From: a virus
Virus record (IMG/VR): IMGVR_UViG_3300037041_001315
Span: 1-39,293 of that record
Strand: one strand, 5' to 3'
DNA: 39,293 bases
Each line of letters starts with the position of its first letter. The first letter of the stretch is position 1. Below are positions 17,836 to 20,648 of the stretch, one piece after another. A program made the translations under genes and the position numbers. The notes under the pieces were generated by a model that was not told the DNA's origin, searched no databases, and saw nothing but the letters and a program-made list of their open reading frames with translations.

Positions 17836-18005
17836 GCCATCAACTCCCGGCGCTCGCGCGACTTGCGCACGGCGCTGTACCGCTGGTGCAGCTTAAGCAG
17901 CACGGTCACACGCTGCGCGCCGTCACGTTCGGCGTCCAACGCGCGTTTGATCTCCGGCTCGGTCATTTTCGGCAGGTAAAGTAGCAGTTCTCGCCAGGTC
18001 ATCAT
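17832..18005 (-). CDS. Small hypothetical protein after the helicase (57 residues)
   Basis: ATG 18005 overlaps the helicase stop (ATGA); a second in-frame ATG follows directly. The protein, MMTWRELLLYLPKMTEPEIK then RALDAERDGAQRVTVLLKLH, is helical and ends in a basic stretch (YSAVRKSRERRELMA). The frame extends to 18173, but that part lies within the helicase gene. Possibly a helicase partner by position only. Confidence 0.6.
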   Translation of the reverse strand: MMTWRELLLYLPKMTEPEIKRALDAERDGAQRVTVLLKLHQRYSAVRKSRERRELMA

Positions 18006-19300
18006 TTGAGTGCCTCCACGGCTATATCCGAGATGGATTTCTTGTCGCGTAACGCGGTCAGAATTTTGTCGTCGATCGTACCGGGCGCTGACAGCACATA
18101 CACCCACACCGCATGCCGCTGGCCGGAGCGGTGCAGCCGGCCGATGGTTTGCTCGTAGAGTTCCAGCGACCACGGCAACGAAAAAAACACAACACGGCTG
18201 CCGCCGGCCTGCAAGTTCAACCCGTGGCCGGCAGACTTAGGGTGCACCAGCAGCAACTCGATTTCGCCCGCGTTCCACCGCGCGATAGCATCCGGGGCGT
18301 CCAGCGTGATAGCCCGCGCGCCGTAGTCTTGCTGGAGTGCGGCCAACTCGGCCTTGTAGTTGTAGACGATGATCGTGGGCGCGCGCTGGTTCTCGGCCAG
18401 CAGCTCGGCCAGACGGTCGAGCTTGTGGTCGGATAGCCAGTGCGTTTCGCCGTCAGCGTAGATAAACCCCGACGCCATTTGCTGCAACTTGCTAGTGACC
18501 GCCGCGGCACTGGCCGCAATCGCTTGCTGGTCGTTGCCAAGTTCTAGCACGAACTGCTGCCGCATGGCTTCGTAGCCAGTCTTGTCGTGCAGCTCGCACG
18601 CTAGGACGACTGTGTGCGCCGGCGGCAGCGTGTCGGTGTACTCGCCCGGCTCCAGCAGGTAGGTCGCTGGCTTAATGCGGGCCATCACGCGCTCAAGCGA
18701 GCCGGGCAGGACGTGCCACTCCCCGTACTCCCTGTTCGCACAGTAGAAATATTGCTGGAGGAACGCGCCTTTGCTGCGGCCAAGCAACGACTTGTCGATC
18801 ATCTTGCACTGCCCGAACACGTCCTCTAGCCCGTTCGACGTAAACGAGCCGGTCAACCCCCAGCGGATGTCAATGTTACGAATGACTTTCTCCAAGGCTT
18901 TAAACCGCTTGCCACTGGCGTTTTTAAGCCGGGTCAATTCGTCAAACACGATGGCGTCAAAATATAACGGTTGCTCGGCCAGCCATTGCAAGCAGTCATA
19001 ATTTGTCACCACCACATCAGCCGGCGCGCAGAGCGCCGCTGTGCGTGCGGCCGGCGTGCCTAGCGCCAATACTACCCGCAAGTTAGGTGCCCACAGCGCC
19101 GCCTCCGTGGCCCACACCGACTGGGCCACCCGCTTGGGTGCGAGCACCAGAAATCGGTGCGCTTGTCCGGCAGCTTTTGCGCCCGCCATCGCGGTCAGCA
19201 CGGTGGCCGTCTTGCCGGCCCCGACGGGGGCCAGCATCATGCCGCGCGAGCAAGCGCGCAGGAAGTCAGCGCCGGCTACTTGGTAGTCTCTGAGGATCAT
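18002..19300 (-). CDS. SNF2/SF2-type DNA helicase
   Basis: This 432-residue protein begins with a Q-like motif (RDYQ) and Walker A PVGAGKT (25-31). Motif II is FDELTRLKN (about 117-125), a DExx box; motif III is LTGSF. The second RecA lobe has TIIVYNYKAEL, HPKSAGHGLNLQ (motif V) and QTIGRLHRSGQR (motif VI), the SNF2 signature. Phages use such short SNF2-like proteins in early replication or recombination. The ATG directly abuts the stop of the nested gene (TAA-ATG), while the methyltransferase frame runs 35 bases into it. No partner domain is fused. Confidence 0.9.
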   Translation of the reverse strand: MILRDYQVAGADFLRACSRGMMLAPVGAGKTATVLTAMAGAKAAGQAHRFLVLAPKRVAQSVWATEAALWAPNLRVVLALGTPAARTAALCAPADVVVTNYDCLQWLAEQPLYFDAIVFDELTRLKNASGKRFKALEKVIRNIDIRWGLTGSFTSNGLEDVFGQCKMIDKSLLGRSKGAFLQQYFYCANREYGEWHVLPGSLERVMARIKPATYLLEPGEYTDTLPPAHTVVLACELHDKTGYEAMRQQFVLELGNDQQAIAASAAAVTSKLQQMASGFIYADGETHWLSDHKLDRLAELLAENQRAPTIIVYNYKAELAALQQDYGARAITLDAPDAIARWNAGEIELLLVHPKSAGHGLNLQAGGSRVVFFSLPWSLELYEQTIGRLHRSGQRHAVWVYVLSAPGTIDDKILTALRDKKSISDIAVEALK

Positions 19301-20144
19301 TTAATAGACCCCATGCTGTCGCAGCCACTGCTGGTACTTGTCCATTTCCAATGGCTTTAAGTCTGTCCACCCGAGCGGCCACCCCATTAGCCACTCGACC
19401 CACGTCGGGTTCAGCGCGCCACCAGCTCGGGCCGCTAGCGTCGGCTCGTTCCGCAAAGCCTCGCTCGGTGAATTGAATTCCTTCGCGTTGTGCGCTGTCG
19501 GTGTCGGCCATAGCGTCCGGGCGCTCAGTGCTTCGATCAGCGTCCCGCCTTCCCTCGCCTTGCTCGGCGTCACCAGCCCGCCGTTGGTTCCCAGTGTGCT
19601 GGTGGGCGTGGGCCACAATCCAGATTCTGTCGCGTCGGTGGGGCGCACCAACGTCTGCCGCCGAAACAACTCCCCACTCTGCATCGAACCCCATCTCGGC
19701 AAGGTCGGCGAGGACAACGTCGAGTCCTCGAAGAGTGAGCATTGGGCTGTTTTCAATGTATGCGTACTGTGGTCGTACCTCCCCAATGATTCGTGCCATG
19801 TGTTTCCACATGCTGGATTTTTCCCCGGAGATTCCAGCCCCGCGTCCTGCGGAACTAATGTCTTGACAGGGAAATCCGCCAGATACGACGTCAACAATTC
19901 CTCGCCAAGGGTGTCCGTCAAAGGTTTGAACGTCATCCCAAATCGGGAAAGGCGGGAGAATGCCGTCATTCTGTCGGGCGCACAGTACGCTTGCGGGATA
20001 GGGTTCCCATTCGACGGCGCAGACTGTTCGCCATCCGAGCAAGTGCCCGCCGAGTATGCCGCCACCAGCGCCTGCGAAAAGAGCCAACTCATTTAAAATT
20101 CCCACTTTTGGTAGTCTCGGAGAGCCATTGGTCAATGTCCTCAT
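19266..20144 (-). CDS. DNA cytosine-5 methyltransferase
   Basis: Numbering is from ATG 20144 (292 residues). Motif I is FAGAGGG (23-29), motif IV is GGFPCQDIS with catalytic C93, motif VI is ENSP (131-134), motif VIII is RDRIW (171-175) and motif X is LKAIGNGQVP. The target-recognition part is short, so specificity cannot be read. The true start is uncertain: family similarity begins near NELALF (18-23), and GTG 20105 is an alternative that would shorten the overlap with the VRR-NUC gene. It would mark phage DNA against host restriction or control gene expression. The whole gene 19301-20092 is encoded inside it in another frame of the same strand. Confidence 0.9.
   Translation of the reverse strand: MRTLTNGSPRLPKVGILNELALFAGAGGGILGGHLLGWRTVCAVEWEPYPASVLCARQNDGILPPFPIWDDVQTFDGHPWRGIVDVVSGGFPCQDISSAGRGAGISGEKSSMWKHMARIIGEVRPQYAYIENSPMLTLRGLDVVLADLAEMGFDAEWGVVSAADVGAPHRRDRIWIVAHAHQHTGNQRRAGDAEQGEGRRDADRSTERPDAMADTDSAQREGIQFTERGFAERADASGPSWWRAEPDVGRVANGVAARVDRLKAIGNGQVPAVAATAWGLLNDPQRLPSSRR
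19301..20092 (-). CDS. Nested conserved protein in alternative frame of the methyltransferase gene
   Basis: This 263-residue frame lies completely inside the methyltransferase gene, shifted by one base. Its ATG overlaps the VRR-NUC stop (ATGA) and its TAA directly precedes the helicase ATG, so it tiles the operon exactly. The protein is not random: it has MSWLFSQALVAAYSAGTCSD, SRLSRFGMTFKPLT, WHESLGRYD, two WPTPT units (SGLWPTPTST, TLWPTPTAH) and the end NPTWVEWLMGWPLGWTDLKP then LEMDKYQQW. I recognise these blocks from a phage/prophage family usually found near cytosine methyltransferases, annotated hypothetical or mislabelled as methyltransferase. Function unknown. No SD is clear; termination-reinitiation from the nuclease gene is likely. 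Confidence 0.78.
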   Translation of the reverse strand: MSWLFSQALVAAYSAGTCSDGEQSAPSNGNPIPQAYCAPDRMTAFSRLSRFGMTFKPLTDTLGEELLTSYLADFPVKTLVPQDAGLESPGKNPACGNTWHESLGRYDHSTHTLKTAQCSLFEDSTLSSPTLPRWGSMQSGELFRRQTLVRPTDATESGLWPTPTSTLGTNGGLVTPSKAREGGTLIEALSARTLWPTPTAHNAKEFNSPSEALRNEPTLAARAGGALNPTWVEWLMGWPLGWTDLKPLEMDKYQQWLRQHGVY

Positions 20145-20379
20145 TGCTCCAGAGCACGACGTAGTTCTGCTCTAACCGTGCCATCGTTTTGCCAAAAATA
20201 ATTTGCAGCGGCGACAGCCGACCGCCGGCCGTTTTAACCTCAACGAACCACGTCCGGCCGCCCGGCAGGCACACCACGCGGTCGGCCACGCCGCCGGTGG
20301 GCGAGCGCCACTTATACGCTTGCCCACCGGCGGCTAGCACGACTTTGCGCAAGTGCGCCTCGACGTCGCGCTCTAGCAT
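20089..20379 (-). CDS. VRR-NUC domain nuclease
   Basis: This 96-residue protein shows the VRR-NUC (PD-(D/E)XK) pattern: LERDVEAHLRKVVLAAGG, then KWRSPTGGVADRVVCLPGG, WFVEVKTAGGRLSPLQ and a C-terminal VLWSNEDIDQWL. Catalytic residues would be D in GVADR, E and K in EVK. Stand-alone VRR-NUC proteins are common in phages and are thought to resolve branched DNA. ATG 20379 is used because it overlaps the upstream stop (TGATG). It is immediately upstream of the nested gene and methyltransferase, and close to the helicase, suggesting a joint role in DNA processing. Confidence 0.88.
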   Translation of the reverse strand: MLERDVEAHLRKVVLAAGGQAYKWRSPTGGVADRVVCLPGGRTWFVEVKTAGGRLSPLQIIFGKTMARLEQNYVVLWSNEDIDQWLSETTKSGNFK

Positions 20380-20648
20380 CAGCGAGACAAGTTCCAAGCG
20401 TCGGTAAACCCTCGTTTGTATGCATCAGTGATGGCGGTTTCGTGCTTAGCCTGCGCCGCGATGGCGGCCAGTTCGTTAGCCAGCACCGCATCATGACGCG
20501 CAGACTCCGCCCGGCGCGCTTCCCGCGCCGTGTACATTCCGTGCATTTCCATAGTTAATCGGTTTATCTCAATGGCCAATCGGGCTGCCAACGAGTCCTC
20601 ATCTCGCTGGCGGAGACGTAACATGGCTTCTTTGATTTCTTGGTTCAT
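20379..20648 (-). CDS. Small coiled-coil protein, first gene of the second leftward operon
   Basis: This 89-residue protein starts at ATG 20648, with AAAGG seven bases upstream. It is helical throughout (NQEIKEAMLRLRQRDEDSLA, then AREARRAESARHDAVLANEL), ending KRGFTDAWNLSR. No family recognised with certainty. It is transcribed from the divergent promoter region at 20682-20740 and leads the nuclease-methyltransferase-helicase operon. Confidence 0.6.
   Translation of the reverse strand: MNQEIKEAMLRLRQRDEDSLAARLAIEINRLTMEMHGMYTAREARRAESARHDAVLANELAAIAAQAKHETAITDAYKRGFTDAWNLSR

Follow-up and report, generated by a model that had tools for sequence, protein, structure and literature searches.

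Two overlapping reading frames of a phage locus probably encode a split C5-cytosine DNA methyltransferase

When one open reading frame (ORF) is nested entirely within another on the same strand of a phage genome, do both encode proteins and, if so, what does the inner protein contribute to the cytosine methyltransferase encoded by the outer one? This question is raised by a locus in the window analyzed here, which spans an entire record, an IMG/VR virus contig of 39,293 bases. The inner ORF is shifted by +1, such that its codon position 1 coincides with codon position 2 of the methyltransferase, and is tightly embedded in its surroundings. Its ATG, preceded by an in-frame stop just 5', overlaps the stop codon of a nuclease gene (AAATGAG), and its TAA lies directly 5' of the helicase ATG. 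The methyltransferase frame probably starts at the GTG at 20105, with the ATG at 20144 and the TTG at 20135 as alternatives. A preceding sequence-only reading of this DNA had described these ORFs, their coordinates and frames, and the junctions with the nuclease and helicase genes, all of which are as claimed; the methyltransferase motifs I, IV, VI, VIII, and X that it listed in the outer frame are present in the sequence, as are repeated WPTPT units, two in number, in the inner protein. The features of the locus are as follows.

20089..20397, minus strand: VRR-NUC-like nuclease, the upstream gene; its stop overlaps the inner ATG
19266..20144, minus strand: frame A ORF, C5-cytosine methyltransferase large (catalytic) domain; 292 aa; PF00145
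20058..20081, minus strand: frame A motif I, LFAGAGGG; from the sequence, columns conserved in A5
19854..19880, minus strand: frame A motif IV with the catalytic PCQ, GGFPCQDIS; from the sequence, near-invariant in A5
19743..19754, minus strand: frame A motif VI, ENSP; from the sequence, invariant in A5
19614..19637, minus strand: frame A motif VIII, RRDRIWIV; from the sequence, conserved in A5
19356..19583, minus strand: frame A linker where a small domain would be expected; modeled as disordered (pLDDT 35-45), no protein-level constraint, always open
19332..19349, minus strand: frame A motif X, GNGQVP; from the sequence; in A5, GN and QV are invariant
19301..20092, minus strand: frame B (+1) inner ORF; 792 nt, 263 aa; proposed small-domain subunit (target recognition and motif IX)
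19628..20092, minus strand: N-terminal half of the inner protein, aa 1-155; dual-coding over motifs I-VIII
19511..19615, minus strand: inner WPTPT cassette 1, WPTPTSTLG..., from the cassette analysis
19418..19510, minus strand: inner WPTPT cassette 2, WPTPTAHNAKE..., from the cassette analysis; the commonest cassette type, found in 79 loci
19367..19414, minus strand: motif IX equivalent of the inner protein, LNPTWVEWLMGWPLGW, just upstream of frame A motif X; hhalign match to single-frame methyltransferases, E 2.9e-10
18002..19300, minus strand: SNF2-like helicase, the downstream gene; its ATG comes right after the inner stop

The inner frame is open far beyond what the methyltransferase codons would allow by chance. 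When the methyltransferase codons of the window itself were shuffled synonymously, a mean of 4.8 stops fell in the inner frame, and none of 200 shuffles left it open. Among 143 distinct full-length relatives, whose gene models required an inner ATG and an open inner ORF of at least 200 codons, there are no inner-frame stops, against a null expectation of 5.2 per gene from synonymous shuffling. Relatives were gathered in two ways, via the inner protein and, as an independent check, separately via the methyltransferase alone; those chosen by the methyltransferase have, among the sequences listed, few +1 stops, all of them at the ends of the inner ORF. The sequence-only reading had held that its proposal would fall if homologues of the inner frame were missing or riddled with stops, and this is not what the relatives show. 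The third frame contains 10-26 stops in most relatives. In 28 ordinary C5-methyltransferases, the +1 frame has 16.3 stops compared to the expected 16.9, and no such inner ORF was found in this set. The inner ATG is directly preceded by TGA or TAA in 126 of the 143 models, the methyltransferase start lies 4 nt upstream of it (NTG-A-ATG) in 112, and a Shine-Dalgarno-like motif is present in 62%, compared to 32% after shuffling. Because the two starts are 4 nt apart in most relatives, a single ribosome-loading site may serve both.

The same stretch of the window also contains an antisense ORF of 252 codons (19338-20096, plus strand) with a weak match to phrog_28355 (E 1e-7). All antisense frames in the relatives contain several stops and none is open, so this ORF was rejected as a gene and is probably due to chance or to a mis-called family.

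Selection was assessed from isolated single-site changes only, each scored for whether it is silent in the one frame and in the other, with a fixed transition weight of 2. Over 58 independent pairs, SN/SS for the inner frame is 0.46 (bootstrap 0.38-0.55) and NS/SS for the methyltransferase is 0.07. In the flanking genes of the same loci, a fictitious +1 frame yields SN/SS values of 1.28-1.79 at 70-90% identity, and at 60-70% protein identity, four-fold sites are identical at a fraction of 0.65 in the methyltransferase versus 0.38 in the flanking genes. The constraint extends to the N-terminal half of the inner protein, where SN/SS is 0.39 for aa 1-60 and 0.34 for aa 100-156, with methyltransferase NN/SN of 0.02-0.10. 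Judged against the flanking genes and the ordinary methyltransferases, the constraint on the inner frame implies that both frames are protein-coding and subject to purifying selection. Free evolution of the synonymous sites of the methyltransferase, the other outcome that the sequence-only reading had named as counting against it, was accordingly not observed. Its estimate of almost 800 dual-coding bases holds in that neither frame is interrupted over the 792 nt; within these, however, a stretch of about 200 nt, the cassette segment at 19418-19627, is constrained in the inner frame only.

This segment comprises the W-P-T-P cassettes, which occupy the stretch between motifs VIII and X. A first comparison of the cassettes was filtered on inner-protein identity and was therefore repeated with pairs picked by nucleotide identity, with no frame prior. 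In these pairs, with 601 of 601 segments in register, identity over the cassette segment is 0.78 for the inner frame versus 0.43 for frame A, and the corresponding rates are 0.41 for NS versus 0.008 for SN. Over the cassettes, then, constraint acts in the inner frame only, with frame A merely kept open. Most of the 137 proteins compared contain one to three cassettes, and the 291 cassettes fall into 22 recurrent types with at least three members, 37 singletons, and a few pairs. The types recur at differing positions, in a modular pattern of shuffling between phages. Each cassette would be expected to recognize DNA, and the set of cassettes to determine specificity.

What, then, is encoded in each frame? 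The frame A protein matches PF00145 with an E-value of 2.6e-29 (103.1 bits against a cut-off of 22). In its AlphaFold2 (AF2) model, residues 1-174 and about 255-270 are mostly confident, and the model matches the large domain of M.HhaI with a Z-score of 18.6 over 187 of 327 residues. No small domain, that is, a target-recognition domain (TRD) with motif IX, was found on the frame A polypeptide, where residues 175-253 are disordered in the model and unconstrained. The confident large-domain model, the disordered segment, and the M.HhaI match together indicate that frame A, as modeled, has the large-domain fold without the small domain. In M.HhaI-type structures, motifs I-VIII and X make up the large domain, whereas the TRD and motif IX make up the small domain (PMC3404938). 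The division between the two frames follows this very boundary.

The other side of the split is suggested by the C-terminal half of the inner protein. An hhalign comparison of the inner family with cassette-bearing single-frame C5-methyltransferases aligned inner residues 156-251 to the cassettes and motif IX of the latter (probability 96.8, E 2.9e-10). Some actinophage-type loci contain, in one frame, motifs I-VIII, two to four PTP cassettes, RLNPELTEWMMGWPAGW, and then ACGNGVVP. Because residues 156-251 align to exactly the cassette and RLNPELTEWMMGWPAGW stretch of these enzymes, the inner segment listed above is the equivalent of motif IX, and the cassettes occupy the position of target recognition. 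By sequence comparison, the C-terminal half of the inner protein is thus homologous to the TRD and motif IX region of single-frame C5-methyltransferases, and the inner protein is most likely the missing small-domain half of the same enzyme. The assignment of motif IX is based on the cassette-bearing enzymes, given that hhalign found no match between the inner family and ordinary C5-methyltransferases lacking these cassettes. Searches of Pfam and NCBIfam with the inner protein returned no credible match, and a sequence search of the PDB returned noise only. The family does match PHROG 1008, 26627, 35493, 27243, and 31772, some of which are labeled DNA methyltransferase; as returned, these entries describe neither the function nor the overlap. 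Modeled alone, with a shallow alignment and without its partner, the inner protein yields an AF2 prediction of insufficient quality for structure searching (pLDDT 54.5), and nothing in known small domains corresponds to its N-terminal half. The sequence-only reading had envisaged the inner protein as an unknown partner or regulator of the methyltransferase. The partner part of this proposal stands, whereas homology to the TRD and motif IX gives the partner a probable identity and speaks against a regulator.

The overlap was found in phages and other replicons of Pseudomonadota, Actinomycetota, Bacillota, cyanobacteria, and Leptospira. A match to the inner protein is present in 25 of 398 sampled Pseudomonadota genomes, and all 29 inner-homologue loci examined in this sample overlap a methyltransferase gene in the same frame, with no stand-alone inner gene seen among the 29; whether homologues share the overlap was a check proposed in the sequence-only reading. 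Classified by regular expressions, which miss divergent motifs (25 loci lack a motif IX call and 16 lack a motif IV call), the loci differ in the placement of the domain pieces. In the window type, the cassettes and motif IX are in the +1 frame and motif X is in frame A. In Arthrobacter phage Andrew, motifs I-VIII are in gp43, and the cassettes, IX, and X are in the overlapping +1 gp44, both products being annotated as DNA methyltransferase. In a Streptomyces plasmid, the cassettes are in +1, and both IX and X are in frame A. Two loci (L046 1530-2912 and L049 1139-2419), in which an inner ORF of 427-461 codons ends with motif X in +1 and frame A stops early, are possibly intermediate between arrangements.

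Several individual loci deserve mention in their own right. In Mycobacterium phage Modragons and its relatives (L085 2146-3061), the methyltransferase is split by an indel, its second half running on in the inner-protein frame, and the two products appear broken or chimeric. Two adjacent stop codons lie between the PTP cassettes of one single-frame methyltransferase (L316, frame A). Annotation is inconsistent (L092 2278-3333 and 2480-3184; L258; L082 2501-3229): in Paenibacillus phage Bloom, as in Andrew, both frames are called DNA methyltransferase, and in Pseudomonas phage phPA-G, the inner frame alone is annotated, as hypothetical. In Salmonella phage S9-5, a P22-like Lederbergvirus, the overlap (L096 2497-3241) lies beside an adenine methylase gene, making this phage a possible laboratory-tractable relative.

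Taken together, these observations make it very likely that the two overlapping frames of the locus jointly encode one C5-cytosine DNA methyltransferase in split form. Under this scenario, frame A would supply the large domain, with AdoMet binding, the catalytic cysteine, and motif X, and frame B a separate protein, the C-terminal half of which would form the small DNA-recognition domain, consisting of one or more target-recognition cassettes that start with W-P-T-P and are followed by motif IX. Both polypeptides would be made and assembled into one enzyme that presumably methylates phage DNA, and swaps of cassettes would change its target sequence. It is exceedingly improbable that the inner frame is untranslated, a passive shadow of codons conserved for the methyltransferase. 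Some inner residues are indeed dictated by the methyltransferase motifs, and similarity between relatives in the third frame, too, exceeds that seen with shuffled codons; however, a shadow would not be expected to stay free of stops in all 143 relatives, to be constrained at methyltransferase-synonymous sites, to contain cassettes conserved in its own frame only, or to encode a protein homologous to real enzyme domains. We reject it on the strength of the shuffles, the flanking-gene and ordinary-methyltransferase controls, and the cassette test.

A translated inner protein could, in principle, act independently as a regulator, inhibitor, or anti-restriction protein and overlap the methyltransferase by happenstance, and the conservation of its N-terminal half, which resembles no known small domain, would fit such a role. 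Nevertheless, this seems unlikely in view of the overlap in the same frame at all 29 loci examined in the Pseudomonadota sample, the homology of the C-terminal half to the TRD and motif IX, and an outer enzyme that lacks that very domain. Quite improbable, too, is a single chain produced by programmed +1 frameshifting, in which motifs I-VIII would be fused to the cassettes and motif IX. In the Andrew-type loci, with IX and X both in +1, one shift would give a complete enzyme, but in the window type, motif X stays in frame A and would be lost; moreover, the inner ORF begins at an ATG of its own that immediately follows a stop codon, and its N-terminal half is under constraint. Beyond the split enzyme at this locus, it seems reasonably likely that phage cytosine methyltransferases include a widespread class whose recognition subunit is overprinted on the gene for the catalytic part and bears several exchangeable target-recognition cassettes, such that methylation specificity is changed by recombination in one frame with the other merely kept open, and motifs IX and X move between frames over evolution.

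If the split holds, two halves of one enzyme are encoded by almost 800 nt of overlapping sequence, which is long for a double-stranded DNA phage; such two-frame coding is known from one or two enzymes of bacteria and is seen here in phages of very broad range. The split would also explain a very common unannotated phage protein family and correct gene calls in which one frame, the other, or both are annotated, and under it, many 'phage cytosine methyltransferases' should have no activity without expression of both frames. Such loci would constitute a natural system of cassette-programmable cytosine methylation, and the series from single-frame through partly split to fully split enzymes offers material on how overlapping genes arise and resolve.

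Known enzymes put these features into perspective. The multispecific phage C5-methyltransferases of the SPbeta type carry several exchangeable TRDs on the same polypeptide as the catalytic domain; by this description, the loci analyzed here would be alike in having several exchangeable recognition modules per enzyme, but differ in that the cassettes are in a second frame. M.EaeI, like M.EcoHK31I, is a naturally split C5-methyltransferase, and Lee, Kam and Shaw are said to have reported in 1995 that the small-subunit gene of M.EcoHK31I lies inside the large-subunit gene, in another frame, just as the small-subunit ORF of the window does. In M.EcoHK31I, the large subunit contains motifs I-VIII and X, motif IX is on the small polypeptide, and the TRD is predicted in the large subunit (PMC3404938). 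The window locus resembles this enzyme in its motif layout, with I-VIII and X on one polypeptide and IX on the other, but its TRD appears to sit in the small subunit, which carries one to several shuffled W-P-T-P cassettes and is found in phages of many phyla. In the two-subunit M.AquI, X is kept with IX, and the split is in the variable region (PMC3404938); the Andrew-type loci similarly separate motifs I-VIII from IX-X, whereas in the window, X remains in the catalytic frame. Given the natural split of M.EcoHK31I and its reported nesting, this kind of arrangement is already known. In the open-licence literature, we found no paper describing the phage arrangement and no published account of its breadth, its cassettes, or the motifs moving between frames. 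What is unusual here, compared to these known systems, is the breadth of the arrangement, the shuffling of cassettes, and the way domain pieces move from one frame to the other.
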